Shown: positions 10,764 to 23,669 of the stretch, one piece after another
Position numbering within the stretch: position 1 is the stretch's first letter
How the letters are laid out: each line of letters begins with the position of its first letter
DNA from: Bacteroidales bacterium
GTDB lineage: Bacteria > Bacteroidota > Bacteroidia > Bacteroidales > UBA932
Reading direction: 5' to 3'
Length of the DNA stretch: 37,154 bases
Assembly (NCBI GenBank): GCA_028686425.1
Contig: JAQUBZ010000024.1
Location: 1 to 37,154 of the forward strand
Made by a program: the position numbers and the translations under genes
The notes under the pieces: generated by a model
Database searches by the model: none
Told to the model about the DNA's origin: nothing
Seen by the model: the letters and a program-made list of their open reading frames with translations, nothing else

Positions 10764-11078
10764 ATGAATACATCAAATGTGGTTTTGTCGGAGGCGGTTT
10801 ATTACATATTATTGGTACTGATGGAACCTCTTCACGGATATGGAATTATGCAAAAAACTGCCGAATTGAGCGGTGGGCGTCTGATTATTTCGGCAGGAAC
10901 GCTTTACGGTGCCATCTCTTCATTGATAGAAAAAGGGTGGATACTTCCTGTCAAATGTGACGATATCAGCCGCAGAAAAGAATATGTGATTACTCCGGAA
11001 GGGCGTTCCGTACTTGAAGTGGAACTTGATCGTTTAAAAGAACTTGTTCGGAATGGAGAAGATATTTTGAATAAATGA
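10764..11078 (+). CDS. PadR-family transcriptional regulator
   Basis: A 104-residue protein with the PadR winged helix: LSEAVYYILLVLMEPLHGYGIMQKTAELSGGRLIISAGTLYGAISSLIEKGWI, then the wing (RRKEYVITPEGRSVLEVELDRLKELVRNGEDIL). The YGAISSLIEKGWI recognition helix and the TPEGR wing are hallmark features. The short C-terminal helix is typical of subfamily 2, used for dimerisation. It is followed after 15 bases by a DUF2812 gene, a pairing seen very often with this PadR type, where the regulator usually represses the membrane partner. A candidate self-operator overlaps the promoter. Confidence 0.93.
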   Translation: MNTSNVVLSEAVYYILLVLMEPLHGYGIMQKTAELSGGRLIISAGTLYGAISSLIEKGWILPVKCDDISRRKEYVITPEGRSVLEVELDRLKELVRNGEDILNK

Positions 11079-11093
11079 TAACAACAAACAAAA

Positions 11094-11672
11094 ATGGATA
11101 TGGAATATAAAAAAGTATGGAGATTTTTCTCTATTGCCGATTTTGAACAAGAGGAGAGGTGGCTCAACGATATGAGTGCTTCCGGATGGAACTTTGTAAG
11201 GACCAACGGACTTATCTTCACTTTTAGAAAAGGCACTCCGGGTGAATTTATCTATAAGATGGATTTGCCTGAAAATAATGCTCACGGGCTTGGAAAAGAG
11301 GAGTACTATCTTTTTCTTACCGAATGCGGCAACAGAATTGTCTGTCAGAACAAAGATTGGATTTATCTTCGCAAAAGTGCTGCCGACGGACCTTTTGAAA
11401 CATCCGACAATACTTATCCACGTCTGAAGATGGTAAACAAGGCGTATGGATATGCCAACAAAGTATTATGCAGGTTATTGAGCGTGTTTACGATTATAGC
11501 GCTTGTGCTAAAGGTATTGGCAATTTCGCTTTCTTCCGATTGCTTAGACGGGATGTCTTATGGAGTGGCTTTTGGCGCCATAATGTCTCTGGCTTTGATA
11601 TTTGTCCCGATTATCAGCCGATTGCGGCGTAAAATGAACATATTGGTGGATGAAATAGGCATTAAAAGATAG
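11094..11672 (+). CDS. DUF2812 domain membrane protein
   Basis: A 192-residue protein. Residues about 5-70 fit DUF2812 (YKKVWRFFSIADFEQEERWLNDMSASGWNFV, then PGEFIYKMDLPE), a cytosolic domain of unknown function. Two hydrophobic helices follow at about 123-147 and 155-177, ending with a basic tail (RLRRKMNILVDEIGIKR). It is encoded directly behind the PadR regulator and is its likely main target. Family members may respond to membrane stress or small hydrophobic compounds, but that is inference. The first two codons (MDM) give a choice of start; either ATG is plausible. Confidence 0.85.
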   Translation: MDMEYKKVWRFFSIADFEQEERWLNDMSASGWNFVRTNGLIFTFRKGTPGEFIYKMDLPENNAHGLGKEEYYLFLTECGNRIVCQNKDWIYLRKSAADGPFETSDNTYPRLKMVNKAYGYANKVLCRLLSVFTIIALVLKVLAISLSSDCLDGMSYGVAFGAIMSLALIFVPIISRLRRKMNILVDEIGIKR

Positions 11673-14567: not shown

Positions 14568-14632
14568 TAAAAAATAAAACTCTACAAAGCCTCTACAAGG
14601 CTCGTAGTGTAATTTTCATAACTGTTTTTGTT

Positions 14633-14704: not shown

Positions 14705-14732
14705 CTCTACAATTACATGTAGAGTTTTTTTT
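14705..14732 (+). terminator. Second terminator-like hairpin just upstream of the DUF47 operon
   Basis: CTCTACA (14705-14711), 6-base loop, TGTAGAG (14718-14724), then eight T. It ends 43 bases before the DUF47 ATG. It could be a back-up terminator for the peptidase, or an attenuator if the DUF47 promoter lies upstream of it. A TAACTTGC (14735-14742) directly after it resembles a weak -7 element. Confidence 0.6.
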
Positions 14733-14775
14733 GTAACTTGCATTGTCAAAATGAACAATCAAGCACCGAAATACC

Positions 14776-15423
14776 ATGTTTTCACTCAAAAAAACCAACT
14801 ACGCAATAGAGAATATCGATAAGTTTTTCGACACAATCGATCAGGCTCTGCTCATATTCAAAGCAGGAGTCAAGGATTATCTATATTCAAACAGGGAAGA
14901 TTTCAATAAGAATATCGAGACTATGTCGCAACTTGAAACCGATGCCGGTATTTTGAGACGGGAGATAGAGAGTAATCTCTACACGCAATCCGTCCTTGTA
15001 CGATTCAGAGGAGATATTATGCGGTTGCTTGAGAGTATGGATCATATAATGAATATACTCAACAACAGTCTTTTTCAATTTGAAATAGAGCTTCCGTTTA
15101 TTCCGTCAGAGCTTAACAATTCATTTATGAAACTTACGGAATTGTCAACTCTTTCGGTGGAAAGTGCAATTCCGGCAGCAAAGGCCTATTTCAGGAATCC
15201 CGATACGATTACCGAGAAGATACACAGGGTATATTTTTATGAAAAAGAGACAAACAAACAGGCTCAGGCCATCAAGCGGCATGTGTTTCATGATATGCAC
15301 GATATTAAATTGAGCGAAAAGTTTCATTTGAGATATTTTGCGCTTCATATTGAAGATTTGTCGGATGCAGCCGAAAAAGTTGCCGACCAGCTGTCGGTAA
15401 TGTCAATCAAACGCGGACTTTAA
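14776..15423 (+). CDS. DUF47 family PhoU-like protein (phosphate transport accessory)
   Basis: A 215-residue all-helical protein starting MFSLKKTNYAIENIDKFFDTIDQ. It matches the DUF47/TIGR00153 pattern: a long N-terminal helix, HIMNILNNSLFQFEIELPFIPSEL in the centre, and HLRYFALHIEDLSDAAEKVADQL at the end, where the ExxDxxD-like acidic face (EDLSDAAE) resembles the metal-binding helices of PhoU. DUF47 proteins are normally encoded beside low-affinity PiT phosphate transporters and are thought to control them. Here the next gene, 6 bases on, is a PiT-like domain fused to a DNA-binding domain. First gene of a six-gene operon. Confidence 0.9.
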   Translation: MFSLKKTNYAIENIDKFFDTIDQALLIFKAGVKDYLYSNREDFNKNIETMSQLETDAGILRREIESNLYTQSVLVRFRGDIMRLLESMDHIMNILNNSLFQFEIELPFIPSELNNSFMKLTELSTLSVESAIPAAKAYFRNPDTITEKIHRVYFYEKETNKQAQAIKRHVFHDMHDIKLSEKFHLRYFALHIEDLSDAAEKVADQLSVMSIKRGL

Positions 15424-15429
15424 CACAAT

Positions 15430-17088
15430 ATGATCTACATAGGTGCCATAATAGCGATACTGATTGTAATATACAGCTTGCTCAAGGTTGACGCGACAGT
15501 CGCGTTCGGACCTATGATGTCTGCCGGTATATTCAAGCCCAAGACATTCAAATCCGGTATGTTGGCGGCAGTTATTATCACACTGCTTCTTATGATACTC
15601 GGATATGTTCCGTACATTCAGCTCGACTATGGTAATAATCTTTCCCGTCAGGCTATTCTGATTTGTGCCGTGTCGGCATTTGTAACCGTGCTGGTTACTT
15701 CTCAATTTACAAAATTCAGTTCGATTACATACTCTTTCATATCGGCTCTGTTTGGTGCATTGCTGTATATTTCGGGAAGTACTTGTCTGCCGATAGCCGT
15801 CAAGGTGTTTATGTCATGGATGGTGGCTCCGGTAATGGGCTTCATGACAGCAATCATCATATATGTCATATACAATTTCATTGTGGTTAAAATCAATGTT
15901 CACTTGCTTAAACTCAATATTTTTGTAGAATATCTGATGATTATTGGAAGTGTCATTCTTGCTTTTGTATTTGCCCTCAATAACGGACCTATACTTATGA
16001 TGATAGCAAATTCTTCATTATCAGGTAGTTTTTCAATACTTGTGTTCGTATTTGCCATAATCGGGCTATTTCTTATGCTTGATAAAAAGATGACGGCAAG
16101 AATGTATGAGATGCTGGATCATGAGTTTGATATTCAATCACCTGCTGCTATTTCGATACTGTTTTCGACAGCAATTGTATTGCTGCTGTTCTCTTCCCAA
16201 TCGTTTACATCGTCAATAGGTCTTTGCGTCTCTCCGATATTTTTGCCGAGTGTCATGTTTATGTCCCTTATCGGTGTAGGATTGGTCCAAAATAAAGAAA
16301 AGATAGAGAGGACAACCGTCAACAGATTGCTGCTCTCATTTATTGCCACTCCGGTTATTGCTTTTCTATTGTCGTACAGCATCTGTTCGTTATTCAATAC
16401 AAGTAATCTCACAAAGATTGCGGAACATGCGGTAGAAGAGAGCACAGCTCCTGATTATAATTTATTTTTATTCATTGTGGTTCTGTCAGTTATCGCCCTT
16501 GTGCTGTTTTTTATAAACTATCAGCAGAAGGCTAAGGCTGAGGAGAGACGAAAATCTCTGGTGCAGCAACAATTAATCTATGAAAATCAAAAAGCTTTGA
16601 ATGCCATTGAAGTAAAAGGCATTTTGGCTGAAAATATCAGCCTGCACAACAGATTGGAGAAGAAGAGGCAGGAATTAATCGACGTGGCTTTGAACATAAG
16701 CGAGCAGAAGGATTTTTTAGCCTCCATCTATAATAAAATGAGGGGGCTTGATACAATGAAAGAGGGCAGTGATAAGGATGCCGCCATCAGAGATGTACAG
16801 CAGATTCTGTTTCAGAGAATGTCTTTCAGACAGGAAATAGACGGATTTTACACTCAGGCGGAGATACTGCACAAAGATTTTTCCATCAAACTGCAGGAGA
16901 AGTTTCCCAATCTGACCGAGCAGGAAAAGAAGCTTGCCACACTCCTAAGACTCGGTTTCTCCACCAAAGAAATAGCTACGCTTATGAATATTTCCACCAA
17001 GAGTGGGGAAATCAGCCGCTACAGATTGAGAAAAAAATTGAATTTATCACGAGAAGACAATCTCATTAAATTTATAAAAACACTTTAA
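15430..17088 (+). CDS. PiT (phosphate transporter)-like membrane domain fused to coiled coil and LuxR-type HTH
   Basis: A 552-residue fusion in one uninterrupted frame. Residues 1-320 are polytopic (about 10 helices) and follow the inverted-repeat plan of PiT/PHO4 transporters. Repeat 1 has VDATVAFGPMMSAG (20-33), SSITYSFISALFG (97-109) and MSWMVAPVMGFMTA (128-141). Repeat 2 has FALNNGPILMMIANSS (181-196), SFTSSIGLCVSPIFLPS (258-274) and LSFIATPVIAFLLSY (302-316). The GANDxxN signatures are degenerate (VDATVAF; ALNNGPI), so transport may be lost. A last helix (345-363) leads to a charged coiled coil (366-430). The C terminus is a LuxR/GerE-type HTH: NLTEQEKKLATLLRLGFSTKEIATLMNISTKSGEISRYRLRKKL (494-537). 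This is the tail of Bacteroidetes TPR-TM-HTH regulators, here with PiT in place of TPRs. Inference: a membrane-bound transcription factor sensing phosphate. Confidence 0.85.
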   Translation: MIYIGAIIAILIVIYSLLKVDATVAFGPMMSAGIFKPKTFKSGMLAAVIITLLLMILGYVPYIQLDYGNNLSRQAILICAVSAFVTVLVTSQFTKFSSITYSFISALFGALLYISGSTCLPIAVKVFMSWMVAPVMGFMTAIIIYVIYNFIVVKINVHLLKLNIFVEYLMIIGSVILAFVFALNNGPILMMIANSSLSGSFSILVFVFAIIGLFLMLDKKMTARMYEMLDHEFDIQSPAAISILFSTAIVLLLFSSQSFTSSIGLCVSPIFLPSVMFMSLIGVGLVQNKEKIERTTVNRLLLSFIATPVIAFLLSYSICSLFNTSNLTKIAEHAVEESTAPDYNLFLFIVVLSVIALVLFFINYQQKAKAEERRKSLVQQQLIYENQKALNAIEVKGILAENISLHNRLEKKRQELIDVALNISEQKDFLASIYNKMRGLDTMKEGSDKDAAIRDVQQILFQRMSFRQEIDGFYTQAEILHKDFSIKLQEKFPNLTEQEKKLATLLRLGFSTKEIATLMNISTKSGEISRYRLRKKLNLSREDNLIKFIKTL

Positions 17089-17100
17089 AACAATTTATTT

Positions 17101-18525
17101 ATGAAAGCTAAATTTACATTATTGGTCATGATGCTGTCACTGATGGCATTCACCGCCAATGCGCAAGTTAATGGTGCGAATTGCTGTGAAAATAAAGGGC
17201 AGGAAGCCTCTAAGGACGAGATTCGCTACAATCAGTATGGAGTTCCGGTCAACAGAACCAAACTTCAGGTTGAAGAGAGAAACGGTATTTTGGTAATGGA
17301 ATCTAAAAACAGTGATTACCGTGTATGGTTTGATACCAGAGTACAGGTAGATGGAGCTGCATTTTTTGGAGAAAATAAAGATTTTGATCCAATAGGAAAC
17401 GGTGTATCTATCCGCAGGGCCCGTTTTGCAATGAAAGCGCAGGTAACTCCGGATTGGTACGGTGAAATCGATACCGATTTTGCAAATGGTGTATTTGAGT
17501 TGAAAGATGCTATTATCCGCTACTCCGGACTTAAAAATTTTGAATTTACAGTAGGTAATTTCAAGGAAGGTTTTTCGATGGAGGCGACCACAACTTCAAG
17601 ATACCTCCCATTTATGGAGAGACCTATGATAGTTCATGCGTTTGCCCCTTCAAGACATATCGGATTGCAGGGCAACTTCAACAAGAATTGGTTTCTTGCA
17701 ATAGCAGGTATTCATTATCAGGCAGTTGAAGACTTGGAAACAAGGGTTAACGTTGAGGACAACAACAAAGACTTTGGAAGAAATACAGGCTATTCATATA
17801 CAGGAAAGATTGTTGCAATGCCGTTTGCTTCAAATCCCAATTATGGTTTGCACTTTGGGGCAGCAGCTTCTTACAGAACACCTAAATCGGACATGGCTAC
17901 AAGCGAGTATGGCGGAGTAAGATATTCTACAAGAAACTCTACATCTATCAACCGCAAGAAATATCTTGATACTGACGTTATTAAGGACGTGAATCACGAT
18001 TTGCTGTACGGCGCCGAATTTGCCGGTTTCTACAAAGGTCTTCGTTTTCAGGGAGAATATATAGGCAACAATACCTATTTGAATACGGTACCCGGAGCAA
18101 GCGATAAGACTGTCTATAAATTCAACGGATGGTATGCTTATGCAGGATGGTTAATCTTTGGCGGTCAATATCAATACAATACAAGTGAAGGTGAGTTTAC
18201 ACAACCGAGAAGAGGCAAGAGCTGGGGAGATATCGAACTGCTTGCAAGATATGACTATATCAATCTCAACAGCGGTAATATTTACGGTGGTTCCGCTCAG
18301 GCATACACAATAGGTTTGAACTATTACATCAACAACAATTTCAAAGTAATGGTCAACTATCAATACAACGACAATGACCGTTATGCCAATGGTAAAGGCA
18401 AGTTATATACAGGTTATGATGCTTCAGGCAAACCTACAAAGGACTATACAAAGATTGTGACCGAAAAGGGTATGGCCGGTGTTGATTACAGCATGTTGTC
18501 AATTCGTTTTGAAATCGACTTTTAA
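17101..18525 (+). CDS. OprO/OprP-type porin (phosphate/polyphosphate-selective family)
   Basis: A 474-residue outer-membrane barrel with a signal peptide (about residues 1-21, ending ANAQ). The mature N terminus (NQYGVPVNRTKLQVEERNGI) resembles the short periplasmic part of Bacteroidetes porins. The family core is clear: RVWFDTRVQVDGAAFF, then ISIRRAR-like SIRRARFAMKAQVTPDWYGE, IDTDFANGVFELKDAIIRY and FTVGNFKEGFSMEATTTSRY. Many amphipathic strands end in an aromatic-containing terminus (MLSIRFEIDF), as expected for barrel assembly. In Pseudomonas, OprP takes up phosphate and OprO polyphosphate or pyrophosphate. Selectivity here is not proven, but its place 12 bases after the PiT-HTH gene supports a phosphate role. 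Confidence 0.9.
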   Translation: MKAKFTLLVMMLSLMAFTANAQVNGANCCENKGQEASKDEIRYNQYGVPVNRTKLQVEERNGILVMESKNSDYRVWFDTRVQVDGAAFFGENKDFDPIGNGVSIRRARFAMKAQVTPDWYGEIDTDFANGVFELKDAIIRYSGLKNFEFTVGNFKEGFSMEATTTSRYLPFMERPMIVHAFAPSRHIGLQGNFNKNWFLAIAGIHYQAVEDLETRVNVEDNNKDFGRNTGYSYTGKIVAMPFASNPNYGLHFGAAASYRTPKSDMATSEYGGVRYSTRNSTSINRKKYLDTDVIKDVNHDLLYGAEFAGFYKGLRFQGEYIGNNTYLNTVPGASDKTVYKFNGWYAYAGWLIFGGQYQYNTSEGEFTQPRRGKSWGDIELLARYDYINLNSGNIYGGSAQAYTIGLNYYINNNFKVMVNYQYNDNDRYANGKGKLYTGYDASGKPTKDYTKIVTEKGMAGVDYSMLSIRFEIDF

Positions 18526-18563
18526 TTATTACCCTAATGTTTAACTATTTAACAATTAAGACA

Positions 18564-19373
18564 ATGAAACGATATATATTAGCTTTGCTGGCAATTGTTG
18601 CCGTATTTACAACATCTTGCGTTAAGGATGACATTTATGAAGGTCCTGCAAGTATCGAAAAGATAGAATTTACTCCCGGTTCGGTAACCCCTAAGGATGC
18701 CGTTACCGTATCTGCCACCATCACAGACCTTAAAAGTGTAACTTCTGCCGTTATCAAATATAAAGTCAATGGGGCAGGTGCTCAGACAATCAATATGACA
18801 AATTCAGGCTCTGTCTATTCAGGCATTATCCCCAAACAGGCAGACAAGAGTGTCGTAACATTTGTAATCGAGGCTGTCAACGCATCAGGTTATACTGCCG
18901 TTTCAGTTGAGAAAACATATACCGTGGCGGCTGTTGTTGTTGATTATTCCGGTTTGATTCTCAATGAATTGAATGGTAACGACAAATTCATTGAACTTTA
19001 CAATAAAGGTAAAAAGGACATTCCTCTGGAAGGTGTTTATATTCAGAAAGACGGAGAGATTAACTGGACTTGCAATGACAAAACTCTTGCAGCAGGTGCT
19101 TATATTCTGTTGTACAGCGAAGATGTTGCTGCCGATCATCCGGGCTATGACGAAGCATTAATCTTCCACAGCGGACTGTCGGCTAAAAAGAATGTACGCA
19201 TCCAGCTGTTTAACCCGGCAGGAACAAGCCTTGACGACTTTAATCTTACGGCAATTGCAAAGACTGCCAAAGGGTCATACAGTCGTGGAACAGATGGCAA
19301 ATGGTATCATGCAGAAGCAACTCCGGGCAAGGTAAATGCAGCCGGAACAGAATTGGTTGAAGGATTAGAATAA
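18564..19373 (+). CDS. Surface lipoprotein with lamin-tail domain (LTD)
   Basis: A 269-residue lipoprotein. The start chosen is the ATG at 18564, which gives a standard lipoprotein signal MKRYILALLAIVAVFTTSC (C19); an upstream in-frame ATG at 18537 would only add nine residues before it. The residues after the cysteine are VKDD, which fits the Bacteroidetes lipoprotein export signal (K followed by two acidic residues), so surface exposure is likely. Residues about 25-125 look like an Ig-like beta domain; about 130-269 form a lamin-tail domain (LILNELNGNDKFIELYNKGKKDI, ... GAYILLYSE). LTDs are found in secreted nucleases, phosphatases and adhesins; no catalytic domain is attached here. It may bind substrate for the OprO-type porin encoded 38 bases upstream. 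Confidence 0.85.
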   Translation: MKRYILALLAIVAVFTTSCVKDDIYEGPASIEKIEFTPGSVTPKDAVTVSATITDLKSVTSAVIKYKVNGAGAQTINMTNSGSVYSGIIPKQADKSVVTFVIEAVNASGYTAVSVEKTYTVAAVVVDYSGLILNELNGNDKFIELYNKGKKDIPLEGVYIQKDGEINWTCNDKTLAAGAYILLYSEDVAADHPGYDEALIFHSGLSAKKNVRIQLFNPAGTSLDDFNLTAIAKTAKGSYSRGTDGKWYHAEATPGKVNAAGTELVEGLE

Positions 19374-19382
19374 ACATATATT

Positions 19383-20027
19383 ATGGCTAAAGAAGAAATG
19401 AAGATTGGGGAGATCTCTAAGCCCCGTTTTGAGTTCCGTTCATTCGGACAGTGTTTTTGCGAAGCGCACAAGAGGATGGCACGTCTATCAATGCCCGTTC
19501 CCGAAAAGGTGTGGGAGCGCAGCAGCGATGAGATATACATAATCTCTCGTAAAAATGACATCAACAATACCAAAATACGTGATGGCAAGATGGATATCAA
19601 GACTTTTGTACAGGCCGTAGATGGTCTTGAACAGTGGAATCCACTCATGAAAGGCGAATTTCCTATTTCGGCAGAAGTGCTTGAAAAGGAGGTTTTTCCT
19701 GCATTTATGGTTGAAACCCCTTCTTTGACTAAAGCTACCTATACTTACGAAGAATTTATCAAGATGGTTGAAGACAATCCCGATCTTGCTGCTGTACGTG
19801 TACACAAGCAGCGTTTCGGCTATATGGTCAACGACACTATCTGCGAAGTTGGAAATGTTCTGATTAACGGAGCCAAGATTGTTACAATCAACTCTGAATC
19901 AACTGAAATAGAGGATATTAAGAAGACAATAAAAGATGTGGGTCTTGAAGGAGTCGAAAATATCAACTATCTTCAGGCCATCAAACGTGTGATAGGCATG
20001 AGTAACAAACCATTAGCAAACGAATAA
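19383..20027 (+). CDS. Divergent CYTH-like protein
   Basis: A 214-residue cytosolic protein that I do not recognise as a named family, but whose strand order resembles CYTH/triphosphate-tunnel proteins. DEIYIISRKND is followed by TKIRDGKMDIKTFVQ, like the CYTH 'LRxRxG-xxLTxK' strand. VRVHKQRFGYMV, ICEVGNVLINGAKIVTINSES and a closing helix (IEDIKKTIKDVGLEG... NYLQAIKRVIG) match the CYTH second half. The N-terminal ExExK metal motif is not intact (RFEFR in its place), so it may be catalytically altered or a partner of the next protein. It starts 9 bases after the lipoprotein gene and ends 2 bases before the next CYTH gene. Confidence is high that the gene is real, moderate for the fold. Confidence 0.65.
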   Translation: MAKEEMKIGEISKPRFEFRSFGQCFCEAHKRMARLSMPVPEKVWERSSDEIYIISRKNDINNTKIRDGKMDIKTFVQAVDGLEQWNPLMKGEFPISAEVLEKEVFPAFMVETPSLTKATYTYEEFIKMVEDNPDLAAVRVHKQRFGYMVNDTICEVGNVLINGAKIVTINSESTEIEDIKKTIKDVGLEGVENINYLQAIKRVIGMSNKPLANE

Positions 20028-20029
20028 TC

Positions 20030-20500
20030 ATGGCACAGGAAATCGAACGCAAATTTTTGGTCGCAGGCAATTTCAAGAATGAAGTTACAAAGGCGACACG
20101 TATCACACAAGGCTATCTTTGCTCTATTCCGGAAAGGACTGTCCGTGTGAGAGTTAAAGGCGAGAAAGGGTATATTACCATCAAGGGGATAGGCAACGAC
20201 AGCGGAGCCAACCGTTTTGAGTGGGAAAAAGAGATTCCGGTTTCGGAAGTTCAAGATCTGCTGAAAATATGTGAGCCTGGTGTGATAGACAAGACCCGAT
20301 ATCTTGTTCCTGCCGGCAGGCATACATTTGAAGTTGATGAATTTTACGGAGACAATGACGGACTTGTCGTTGCGGAAGTTGAACTTTCAGAAGAAAACGA
20401 AGAGTTCATCAAACCTGCATGGCTCGGAAAGGAGGTTACGGGAGATGTCAAATACTACAATTCGATGCTGATGAAAAATCCGTATAAGAATTGGAAATAA
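20030..20500 (+). CDS. CYTH-domain triphosphate tunnel metalloenzyme (probable tripolyphosphatase)
   Basis: A 156-residue protein starting MAQEIERKFLV, the canonical ExExK metal motif (E4, E6, K8). The remaining CYTH strands are intact: RTVRVRVKGEKGYITIKG, NRFEWEKEIPV, HTFEVDEFYGDNDGLVVAEVELS, and WLGKEVTGDVKYYNSML at the end. This is the short single-domain form represented by NeuTTM and the Clostridium thermocellum TTM, which hydrolyse inorganic tripolyphosphate using Mg2+ or Mn2+. The substrate here is inferred from family and from the phosphate-related operon. It starts 2 bases after the CYTH-like gene and is the last gene before the terminator at 20511. Confidence 0.9.
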   Translation: MAQEIERKFLVAGNFKNEVTKATRITQGYLCSIPERTVRVRVKGEKGYITIKGIGNDSGANRFEWEKEIPVSEVQDLLKICEPGVIDKTRYLVPAGRHTFEVDEFYGDNDGLVVAEVELSEENEEFIKPAWLGKEVTGDVKYYNSMLMKNPYKNWK

Positions 20501-20582: not shown

Positions 20583-22199
20583 ATGAACGAAACTTCATCT
20601 TCACAGGTAGAGGCAAAAGTATTTGACCCGCTGGATATGAGCAACTACAAAATAGAAAAGTTGCCTAAAATGCAGAAATCGGGGTTTGAGAAATGGATGT
20701 CTATAGTGGGCGGTCCGCTCGCTTTAGTGGTATTTATATTTATTTACCGGTTCGCCGATATTTCCTTTCTGAATACAATTGGGACTGAAGGGCTCAGTAA
20801 AACGGCATTACAGAGGTATGACGTATTGGGGGCGGCGGGCTTTTCGAGGATAAACTATGCCATGCTGGCAATATTTGTCTCGTCCATAATACTTTGGATT
20901 ACTGAAGCTATTCCAAATTATCTTACTTCTCTGATGGTGATTTTAGCGATTGTCCTTACGGGGGTTACTACCGAAAAGACCGCTTTTGCACAGCTCGGCC
21001 ACCCTGTGATGTGGCTGAACATCCTCTCTTTCGTCCTTGCAAGTATGCTTGTCAAAACTCAGGTAGCCAAGAGGTTTGCCCTTTGGTTTGTAATCCGTTT
21101 CGGTAAAAATTCGGCAGGTGTGATGATAAGTTTCATTGTGATTAATCTTGTCCTTTCGGCATTTATTTCGGCAACTACAGCCAAGGCGGCAATTCTGCTT
21201 CCTATTTTTATGGTGGTTTGTGCCATATATGGAGCAACGGGAGGCGATAACAGAAACAATTTCGGGCGAAATCTTGTCCTCCAGAATCTGTTTCAGATTA
21301 ATTTGGGGGCAAATGGCTTCCTTACAGGCTCCGGAGCCACATTGCTGGCAGGTTCTCTGATTGCCGGAGCTATGGGCAAAGACTCTTTCGGCTATACAGA
21401 CTGGCTTGTTCCGGCTTTGCCTATGAGTATAATTTTGATATTGATTGCATGGTTTGTCGGGACAAAATTGATATTTCCACTGAAAAAAGAGGAGAAAACT
21501 CCTCAGATTGAGGGTGGAATGGAGCGTCTGAAAGAGGAATTGCACAAACTCGGGCCGATGAAAACAGAGGAATTTAAGGCTGTCGCCATATTTGTCGGAG
21601 TGCTGGCTATGTGGGCTACCGAAAATATTCACGGCATCAGCCCTACATCCGTTGCCTTTATCGGGGCGGTTATTGCCCTCATCCCCAAAATAGGTGTTGT
21701 CAAATGGAACGATGTCGATATTCCGTGGCATCTGCTTCTTTTCTCAGCCGGCGCCTATACTCTCGGGGCCGGACTTGATGCTTCCGGACTTCCCGGTACA
21801 TTGGTGGCTCAAGCTTTTGATGCAATAGGCATTACGGCTCAAACGCCATTTTGGGCATTGTATTTGCTGCTGACAGGTACTATGCTGGCAAGCGCGATGA
21901 TATTCCAGTCTAAGACAATGCAGACTTTGATTTTCATTCCTATAGCCATCAGTGTGGCGCAACAGTTCGGTTATCCGATTATGTCTCTGGCTTTTCCTGT
22001 TGCAATGTTGGTAGGACATGTGTATGTGTTGCCGTTCAATTCCAAACCTGCAGCGTTGCTCTATACAACAAACCATTATAGTTGGAGCGATACATTCAAA
22101 TTCGGAATAACGATGATGATAATCAGCTGGGGAATGATAATTTTATGGGGTGAAACAGTACTGAAATGGCTGGGTTATACAAATGGAGTATTTTTTTAA
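20583..22199 (+). CDS. SLC13/DASS family anion transporter
   Basis: A 538-residue polytopic membrane protein with a cytosolic N-terminal tail of about 50 residues, then about 12 helices in two repeats. Features of DASS (divalent anion:sodium symporters) are visible: ILWITEAIPNYLTSLMVIL near the start, AFISATTAKAAILLPIF in repeat 1, and SAMIFQSKTMQTLIFIPIAI with GHVYVLPFNSKPAALLYTT in repeat 2. The two substrate/sodium-binding SNT motifs of characterised members appear as SAT and SKT, so the substrate may not be a classical dicarboxylate. Phosphate or sulfate would fit the neighbourhood, but this is speculation. It begins after the terminator at 20548 and is followed by two genes with gaps of 15 and 25 bases. 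Confidence 0.88.
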   Translation: MNETSSSQVEAKVFDPLDMSNYKIEKLPKMQKSGFEKWMSIVGGPLALVVFIFIYRFADISFLNTIGTEGLSKTALQRYDVLGAAGFSRINYAMLAIFVSSIILWITEAIPNYLTSLMVILAIVLTGVTTEKTAFAQLGHPVMWLNILSFVLASMLVKTQVAKRFALWFVIRFGKNSAGVMISFIVINLVLSAFISATTAKAAILLPIFMVVCAIYGATGGDNRNNFGRNLVLQNLFQINLGANGFLTGSGATLLAGSLIAGAMGKDSFGYTDWLVPALPMSIILILIAWFVGTKLIFPLKKEEKTPQIEGGMERLKEELHKLGPMKTEEFKAVAIFVGVLAMWATENIHGISPTSVAFIGAVIALIPKIGVVKWNDVDIPWHLLLFSAGAYTLGAGLDASGLPGTLVAQAFDAIGITAQTPFWALYLLLTGTMLASAMIFQSKTMQTLIFIPIAISVAQQFGYPIMSLAFPVAMLVGHVYVLPFNSKPAALLYTTNHYSWSDTFKFGITMMIISWGMIILWGETVLKWLGYTNGVFF

Positions 22200-22214: not shown

Positions 22215-23669
22215 ATGATAGAAATTAAGACAAAGATTCACGATAGCTTTTCTGTCGAATTTAAAGAGAGTTTTGTAGTAGGTTCCAAAGAGAAAGACAA
22301 CAATTTTGCTGTCAATACATGGATTTTTGTCCCTAACAGTCTTGATATCAACCCTCAGACATACGGAAAAGATCAGTTTTACAGGGATGTCAAGAGTAAT
22401 GTCCGCTTGATAACTCCTGTTTATATCATGAGGGACATTGTAGGGGGTAAAGCGGTTCCACTCAACTATTTGCGTAATGCAATGAGCAATATGGCGAGTG
22501 CTCCCACAAAAAGCAATATTTCCGAATTCGAGTATCAGATAAAGATGTTTTGTGCAATCGCCAAAAGTTCCATGAGAGATGAAGTTGCGCATATTCTCTC
22601 AAGCACACAGACAGACGACATAATATTTCTGAGCGAAGAGTATCAAAAAAATCTTACAAATATCGTCCGCTATTACAGAGGGTTGAGACAGATTATCAAT
22701 GTCCCTACAATTACAGATCAGATAAGAGAGTATTTCAAGTTCGGAGATGAATTTTTAGGACATATATCTTCACTTTATACATTCAGGGTGATTAAAAAAT
22801 TGGCCAAAGCTACTCCGGATACACAAATTAAAGTGCTTTTGCTCGATTTTATAAAGGAAAATGAGGATTATAAAAAATCAATGGGATATCCTGTTGTGAT
22901 CAAGGGAGATAACTCCAATAATCAGAATCTGGTATTCAGGCATGGAATACTTAAAAAGTATGTTGAAAGTGACTTGTTTATCAAACTTGACAAAAAGAAG
23001 GACGGATTTGCCCTTGAACAGATACTATATGCCGTTGCTGCGGGAGTGGCAATGATATTTGCCACGGTAGTATCATTCTCAGTACAGAGAAATTACGGTT
23101 CTCTTTCAATTCCATTGTTCTTTGCCCTGATTATCAGCTATATGCTAAAAGACCGAATCAAGGAACTGATGCGTTATTTCTTTGCTCACCGGCTTGTGGC
23201 CAAATATTTTGATAATAAGGCAATTGTAAAGATTAAGGATCAGGAGGTAGGGTGGATGAAGGAGGGGGTGGACTTCATTACGGACCAAAAGACCCCTAAA
23301 GAGGTCCTTGATATAAGAAACAGATCTCTGTTGGTACAGGCTGAAAACCGAATTTTTGACGAGAAGATAATACTGTACCGAAAACTCGTATATATTGATA
23401 GTAAAGAGCTGTCAGACAATAATATTTATCCTGTGTCGGGGATTAATGATATCTTCAGGCTCCATGTCACCAGATTTACGCAGAAGATGGACAATCCGCA
23501 ACAGCCGTTGACAATCCTTGATGCCGATGGAAATGTATCCGAAATCACAAGTCAGAAAATTTACTACATCAATATCATTATTCAGGTCAGATATGGGGAA
23601 AATATCGACTACAAGAGGTTCAGAATAGTTATGACGAGAGACGGAATACAGAAAGTAGAGGAATTGTAG
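22215..23669 (+). CDS. Conserved-looking membrane protein of unknown function (two central helices)
   Basis: A 484-residue protein that I do not recognise. Residues 1-265 are soluble and mixed alpha/beta (start MIEIKTKIHDSFSVEF; helical around 90-220). Two adjacent hydrophobic helices occur at about 272-291 (ILYAVAAGVAMIFATVVSF) and 297-312 (LSIPLFFALIISYML), followed by a basic stretch (KDRIKELMRYFFAHRLVAKYF). The C-terminal 150 residues are soluble and beta-rich (RKLVYIDSKEL, KIYYINIIIQVRYG). Both soluble parts should face the cytoplasm if the helices form a hairpin. No signal peptide or catalytic motif is seen. It starts 15 bases after the SLC13 gene and precedes the DUF2147 gene by 25 bases, so it is probably in the same operon. 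Confidence 0.8.
   Translation: MIEIKTKIHDSFSVEFKESFVVGSKEKDNNFAVNTWIFVPNSLDINPQTYGKDQFYRDVKSNVRLITPVYIMRDIVGGKAVPLNYLRNAMSNMASAPTKSNISEFEYQIKMFCAIAKSSMRDEVAHILSSTQTDDIIFLSEEYQKNLTNIVRYYRGLRQIINVPTITDQIREYFKFGDEFLGHISSLYTFRVIKKLAKATPDTQIKVLLLDFIKENEDYKKSMGYPVVIKGDNSNNQNLVFRHGILKKYVESDLFIKLDKKKDGFALEQILYAVAAGVAMIFATVVSFSVQRNYGSLSIPLFFALIISYMLKDRIKELMRYFFAHRLVAKYFDNKAIVKIKDQEVGWMKEGVDFITDQKTPKEVLDIRNRSLLVQAENRIFDEKIILYRKLVYIDSKELSDNNIYPVSGINDIFRLHVTRFTQKMDNPQQPLTILDADGNVSEITSQKIYYINIIIQVRYGENIDYKRFRIVMTRDGIQKVEEL

Follow-up and report, generated by a model that had tools for sequence, protein, structure and literature searches.

The window analysed here is a stretch of 37,154 nucleotides (contig JAQUBZ010000024.1, positions 1 to 37,154) from a Bacteroidales bacterium of the UBA932 lineage. 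It carries on the forward strand a run of genes that begins with a DUF47/PhoU_div gene, continues after only 6 bases with a single open frame of 552 codons with an ATG start, and goes on with genes for a porin, a lipoprotein, a CYTH-domain protein and an anion symporter (Table 1). The 552-codon frame joins a PiT-like membrane domain to a LuxR-type helix-turn-helix (HTH). Elsewhere in the window, positions 10764-11669 encode a PadR-type regulator and, behind it, a DUF2812 protein.

Table 1. Features of the fusion gene, its operon and the region upstream, in window coordinates
Feature	Positions	Strand	Basis
Two CTCTACA candidate operator copies, starts 14580 and 14591, 11 bp apart	14580..14597	+	Motif count
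Promoter-proximal CTCTACA candidate operator	14705..14711	+	Motif count
CTCTACA on minus strand (TGTAGAG)	14718..14724	-	Sequence
TAACTTGC, variant of the -7 box TAnnTTTG, 29 bp behind the proximal CTCTACA copy	14734..14741	+	Sequence
DUF47/PhoU_div, partner gene	14776..15423	+	Pfam PhoU_div 8.2e-13
PiT-like membrane domain and LuxR-type HTH, 552 aa	15430..17088	+	ORF, Pfam, homologues
Residues 1-335, decayed PiT/PHO4 membrane domain	15430..16434	+	Pfam, profile-profile comparison
D21, counterpart of the Asp of GAND-1 (human PiT2 D28)	15490..15492	+	D or E in 20/20 decayed members
N184, counterpart of the Asn of GAND-2	15979..15981	+	Asn in 73/73 aligned rows
D234, new Asp	16129..16131	+	Invariant in 20/20 decayed members; Ala in intact L027
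Residues ~345-364, extra membrane helix, then positively charged stretch	16462..16521	+	Read from sequence
Residues ~365-489, helical coiled-coil-like linker	16522..16896	+	Low-confidence model, alignment
Residues 490-552, GerE/LuxR HTH	16897..17085	+	Pfam, model
Porin_O_P outer-membrane porin	17101..18525	+	Pfam 9.9e-44
Lamin-tail-domain (LTD) lipoprotein	18537..19373	+	Pfam
214-aa protein, conserved in cluster, without Pfam or NCBIfam match	19383..20027	+	Domain scans, locus comparison
CYTH-domain protein	20030..20500	+	Domain scan
DASS/SLC13-type sodium-coupled anion symporter	20583..22199	+	Domain scans
484-aa protein without Pfam or NCBIfam match	22215..23669	+	Domain scans

Both parts of the fusion exceed their Pfam cut-offs, PHO4 with 3.9e-9 (36.4 bits, cut-off 33.7) and GerE with 8.9e-7 (28.9 bits, cut-off 23.5), and the first-pass annotation was thus right to read a PiT/PHO4 fold and a LuxR HTH in one frame; the 'SWxxxP'-type repeats that it pointed out map to conserved columns (S129, W130, P134; P308). 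The profile check that it proposed for PHO4 also turned out well beyond the Pfam match itself, as 14 membrane domains with decayed motifs, the type found in the window, matched 11 unfused relatives with 99.4% probability (E 2.1e-21, 314 columns) and 11 canonical PiT proteins of the order with 81.6% (E 1.1e-5, 207 columns) in profile-profile comparisons. A chance PHO4 match was rejected. By sequence, the window protein matched no PiT structure and the intact member L027 matched TmPiT (6l85); the single-sequence AlphaFold2 model of the fusion (mean pLDDT 49.5, about 40 in the membrane part and 71-87 in the HTH blocks) is too poor for judging the fold.

By profile, the window protein is a LuxR-type regulator. 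The Pfam scan found no receiver or kinase domain in it, and the NCBIfam response-regulator matches covered the HTH part only, far under their cut-offs. One chain holds both an input and a DNA-binding output, as in membrane-bound one-component regulators, and the same chain combines a transporter domain with a signalling output, as in transceptors.

Spread of the fusion and its gene neighbourhood

Full-length homologues of the window protein, 27-35% identical to it, were found in 25 of 249 genomes of its family, and a profile search detected full-length fusions in 27 of 393 genomes of the order, representing 18 families. The fusions of the order include one broken by TAA (L046) and one with TGA at a contig end (L062). 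At E 0.001, GerE was matched by all 25 family members (A1) and PHO4 by 14 of them; among 25 further members from the order (A2) the counts were 23 and 24, respectively. One fused protein of the order, L065, has a degenerate HTH that no longer matches GerE. Scanning contigs with the window protein gave just one HTH match (L016), and viral contigs gave no match. In a phylum sample of 392 genomes searched at E 1e-60, all 14 matches besides the window end with the transporter domain, as judged by reading their tails, and GerE was absent in both relatives that were scanned. Outside the class, the C-terminus of many unfused relatives is prolonged by a hydrophilic stretch, which in L107-L116 comprises about 140 amino acids with shared patterns, a different module standing where the order has the HTH. 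On a quick tree of the aligned rows, in which long branches meet, the fused and unfused states need five changes, at least three of them forced by starred branches, so the fusion may have arisen more than once. The alignment leaves out L046 and L062 with their stop codons, as well as L049, L052 and L056 as near-relatives of kept rows, and L065 and the fused-like L072, which is cut by a contig end, were taken out of the unfused group. Among the matches listed in a search of the open-licence literature, covering titles and the starts of abstracts, no description of the PiT-HTH architecture was found.

The first-pass annotation had suggested looking for the same architecture beside DUF47 elsewhere, and DUF47 indeed adjoins and precedes the fusion in 49 of the 50 loci examined, the sole exception (L062) lying at a contig end. 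DUF47, fusion and porin stand together in all 25 family loci; the porin is missing in three of the 25 further loci of the order, namely L045 and L066, both at contig ends, and L065. Of 17 large fused loci, all but L135, around L065, keep the gene order DUF47, fusion, porin, LTD, 214-aa protein, CYTH, DASS (16/17), and relatives of the ~484-aa protein close the cluster in 10 of the 17, window included. Outside the class, five of six large loci read unknown-CYTH-DASS-DUF47-PiT-porin with an unfused PiT, and five unfused loci of the order have fewer cluster genes behind DUF47 and PiT, with CYTH in three and the unknown in one. Of the 249 family genomes, 47 carry the 214-aa gene, all 25 with a full-length fusion among them, and the relatives matched in the family are mostly 74-92% identical to the window copy. 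Its product was modelled by single-sequence AlphaFold2 with a mean pLDDT of 32.9; its motifs have a CYTH-like look, and hhalign against the CYTH family found nothing (0.2%).

In 22 genomes the 214-aa gene comes without a full-length fusion, and we inspected nine of them. Seven had a readable start, and all seven of these sister operons (L160-L165, L168) keep porin, LTD, 214-aa protein, CYTH and DASS, with DUF47 and the fusion both absent. The remaining two were G058, whose contig lacks a porin, and G102. In the latter (L041, 880-1884; also L167, 6219-7199), DUF47 runs directly into the coil and the LuxR HTH with no membrane domain between them, and the gene adjoins Porin_O_P; the L041 junction is free of N, and an N-run lies inside its DUF47.

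Decay and constraint in the membrane domain

Among 46 aligned fused rows, 20 have decayed transporter motifs and 26 have motifs that are intact or nearly so; in the family of the window, 20 of 25 fusions are decayed. The window protein reads LKVDATV and ALNNGPI at the places of the two GAND-type signatures, a GANDVANA-type signature being present in neither repeat, and apart from D21 and N184 the listed positions of the two signatures and the two ST loops hold different residues, with N185 and one Ser as further exceptions. By this signature the protein is not classed as a phosphate transporter. The first-pass annotation had described the GANDxxN signatures as degenerate in both repeats; this is correct for the motifs as such, but the acid of the first (D21) and an Asn of the second (N184) are kept. 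The human PiT2 counterpart of D21, D28, is critical for phosphate transport (PMC3126765). The intact fused and the unfused rows form one PiT subfamily with GAND in repeat 1 and GANN in repeat 2, and in no aligned row does repeat 2 read GAND, the motif being either GANN or gone. The ST loops of this subfamily mostly carry Q where canonical PiT proteins have H. Single losses in signature 1 were found in L063, which lacks the acid, and in L060, which lacks the first Asn, and L064 has GTND.

The constraint is inverted between decayed and intact members. Mean identity in the decayed group (20 rows) is 0.34 for the membrane domain and 0.77 for the HTH, and in the intact group (21 rows) it is 0.66 and 0.58, respectively. 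Purifying selection still acts on the decayed membrane domain, with dN/dS of 0.05-0.23 in nine measurable pairs that share members; a tenth pair (L017/L018) was saturated, and four intact pairs, likewise with shared members, gave 0.03-0.05. A pseudogene was rejected, as dN/dS lay well under 1 in the nine decayed pairs.

Signature decay combined with purifying selection fits sensing better than transport. The earlier proposal that the decay points to sensing is thus supported for the 20 decayed rows and does not extend to the 26 of 46 fused rows that keep their motifs; motif decay is not a property of the fused architecture. Because these 26 rows have motifs intact or nearly so, the ancestral fusion was presumably a working transporter to which a regulator had been added, and the intact members are probably true transceptors. 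Genus g11 contains both intact and decayed forms, so the change from transporter to receptor may be traced in living species, even within one genus.

Repeats upstream of DUF47

The upstream regions of fused loci are rich in CTCTACA-type repeats. Of 49 distinct upstream regions of fused loci, 46 carry CTACA on the operon strand, versus 3 of 26 unfused regions (a set of 38 unfused regions contains duplicates), and the fused regions hold 121 operon-strand copies versus 13 on the opposite strand. In 43 less redundant fused regions, [CA][TAC]CTACA occurs 90 times versus 7.1 expected (largest of 300 shuffles, 17), an enrichment that is partly circular because the motif was picked by eye from the same upstream regions in which it was counted; the phasing, the strand bias and the comparisons with unfused and regulator-less operons are less so. 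A looser motif has a copy in 42 of these 43 regions and two or more in 38 (110 copies versus 23.9 expected), and in the unfused set it has a copy in 7 of 26 regions and two in none (7 copies versus 5.5 expected). Distances between copies cluster near 11, 22, 33, 43, 54, 66 and 98 bp, and the resulting phasing of about 11 bp (R 0.639) lies above the largest value from 5000 random placements (0.418). None of these nulls corrects for kinship between the loci.

The consensus -7 box of Bacteroidetes promoters is TAnnTTTG. An exact box is present in 32 of 43 fused loci, with 2.8 expected, and is absent in the window and 10 other fused loci. Of 31 loci in which the spacing could be measured, 22 have their nearest repeat 34 or 56-70 bp upstream of the box, a position that suits an activator, and in L020 it is just 7 bp from the box. 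In the window, the copies at 14705-14711 and 14718-14724 make up an inverted repeat with T8 behind it, and the pair could therefore also be read as a terminator-like element.

The repeats track the fused HTH in three comparisons, i.e., with the unfused relatives, with L065 and with the operons that have no regulator pair. Strict copies are absent upstream of L065, whose HTH is degenerate, and within 250 bp of the porin in all seven sister operons lacking DUF47 and the fusion; there, the looser motif matches AAATACA once each in two of the seven. Helically phased repeats that co-occur with the fused HTH make a putative target upstream of DUF47 likely, the place where the first-pass annotation had sought one. 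Its broader expectation, that the protein controls phosphate genes at large, found less support. Paired exact CTCTACA sites 10-40 bp apart gave 23 matches in 20 genomes, seven of them at this operon, compared with 14 for a reversed control pattern, so the regulon seems to be local and to consist of its own operon, and single or variant sites may occur elsewhere.

Proposed mechanism, alternatives and known systems

We favour, with moderate confidence, the reading that the window protein is a membrane-bound one-component transcription factor whose input, a former PiT transporter working with DUF47, governs binding to the CTCTACA repeats and activation of its own operon. The input domain would no longer be a normal transporter and would retain part of the ion or anion site (D21, N184). 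It would cooperate with the product of the preceding gene, the PhoU-like DUF47 protein, whose role in signalling is suggested by analogy with PhoU and the Pst-PhoR system (PMC8871633). The added membrane helix, behind which follow a positively charged stretch and then the HTH, would bring the C-terminus to the cytoplasm, the side on which the HTH has to lie; models in the literature disagree on the location of the ends of PiT proteins. The coiled coil may pair the subunits and present the LuxR-type HTHs, which would bind the repeats lying on the same face of the DNA upstream of DUF47. Since the repeats are mostly upstream of the -7 box, binding is predicted to activate the operon, i.e., DUF47, the regulator itself, Porin_O_P, the LTD lipoprotein, the CYTH protein and the DASS transporter. 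We think that the window protein works like a transceptor reduced to one component. Points against this reading include the position of the proximal window repeat within a terminator-like hairpin, the lack of an exact -7 box in the window and 10 other fused loci, the short distance between repeat and box in L020, the three fused loci that have an HTH and no strict repeat, and L041 with its DUF47-HTH chain.

Phosphate is favoured as the ligand by DUF47, Porin_O_P and CYTH. DUF47 is a relative of PhoU and a usual partner of PiT proteins, and CYTH enzymes often act on (poly)phosphates. It is rather unlikely that the same regulator responds to sulfate or to a different oxyanion on which the DASS transporter and the porin act, although a DASS symporter is indeed encoded in the operon. 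Residues H502 and D506 of human PiT2, which are critical for Pi transport (PMC3126765), are L and N in the intact L027, and the GANN in repeat 2 of intact and unfused rows resembles the sulfate permease CysP. The D-to-N change in repeat 2 is common to this PiT-like subfamily and CysP, in which D-to-N and D-to-G changes have been linked to sulfate (PMC5840216). These similarities are countered by the PhoU kinship of DUF47, by the action of CYTH enzymes and by Porin_O_P, which is named for phosphate. One Porin_O_P protein is encoded in the PhoBR operon of Flavobacterium johnsoniae, where it was not induced (PMC8115612).

The membrane domain could also be a mere anchor or platform, with DUF47 as the real sensor that passes its state to the HTH. 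Such a division of labour, which we regard as unlikely, would agree with the constant proximity of DUF47 to the fusion (49/50 loci), with the joint absence of both in 7/7 sister operons and with L041, where DUF47 is joined directly to the coil and HTH. A mere anchor is hard to reconcile with purifying selection on the membrane domain, with the invariance of D/E21, N184 and D234 and with the strong conservation of transporter motifs in 26/46 fused rows.

It is improbable that the window protein still transports and that its HTH tunes expression to transport, which would make it a true transceptor. Another PHO4 gene is present in 7 of 20 decayed-form genomes and the other 13 have no further match, so the fusion may retain some transport; in the source genome itself (2.2 Mb, 92% complete), a single PHO4 gene was found besides the fusion, in a frame of 753 aa on contig C25. 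PstB exceeds its cut-off in 6 of 50 member genomes and in only 1 of 25 within the family, which would likewise suit a protein that still transports. The replacement of the listed signature and ST-loop residues, save N185, one Ser and the retained acid and Asn, argues against it, as do the DASS transporter in the operon and Na_Pi_cotrans proteins in 23 of 25 family genomes, by which most genomes have another possible phosphate carrier.

The CTCTACA repeats might instead be the site of another regulator, with the fused HTH acting elsewhere. NarL-type proteins often use inverted repeats, and three fused loci with an HTH (L023, L032, L041) have no strict repeat, but the repeats follow the HTH when set against unfused relatives, L065 and regulator-less operons, and we consider a second regulator decidedly improbable. 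An assembly artefact or chance fusion has a negligible probability and was ruled out by the full-length homologues in 25/249 and 27/393 genomes, whose 27-35% identity also settles the concern of the first-pass annotation about a sequencing join of two genes.

If the favoured reading is true, it would be a candidate route by which anion uptake, probably of phosphate, is controlled with no kinase involved, in a set of 50 genomes that mostly (44) show no PstB over the family cut-off. Transceptors are rare, and the route from transporter to receptor is, to our knowledge, an open question. In the present fusion, intact and decayed versions occupy the same operon with a predicted operator as readout, so the question could be addressed by swapping domains or residues between them. 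What sets the system apart is a transporter fold joined directly to a DNA-binding domain, together with the decay series and the predicted operator. We see the evidence as evenly balanced on whether they amount to a new type of switch, in which an anion transporter is fused to an HTH acting on a phased array and in one family has turned into a pure receptor.

Several known systems share parts of this design. Long LuxR-tailed proteins of about 950-1000 aa from the same family (partial matches) and the NCBIfam BT3442 family, to which the window protein has a weak match, possess a related C-terminal coil and HTH, and their match to the fusion is limited to these parts. CadC and ToxR are likewise membrane-anchored DNA-binding proteins without a phosphorelay, but they differ in having an N-terminal DNA-binding domain, one membrane helix and no transporter fold. 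With PiT/SLC20 transporters (Pfam PHO4), the window protein has in common the two-repeat membrane fold and the DUF47 partner; it differs by its decayed signature residues, its GANN subfamily and the added C-terminal helix, coil and HTH. In the sulfate permease CysP the Asp of the second signature is replaced by Asn, as here, and no regulator domain is described for it (PMC5840216, PMC11535334), the comparison being with published descriptions; the CysP group combines this Asn with a Gly in signature 1, whereas the fusion keeps the Asp there. A further parallel in design is provided by the transceptors CbrA and CrbS, in which an SLC5 domain and a histidine kinase combine transporter and signalling output on one chain, and CbrA has a small adjoining partner gene, CbrX, where the fusion has DUF47 (PMC13022988, PMC8871633). 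CbrA, however, couples its SLC5 domain to a histidine kinase output and a separate response regulator, whereas the fusion carries its PiT domain and the HTH on the same chain.
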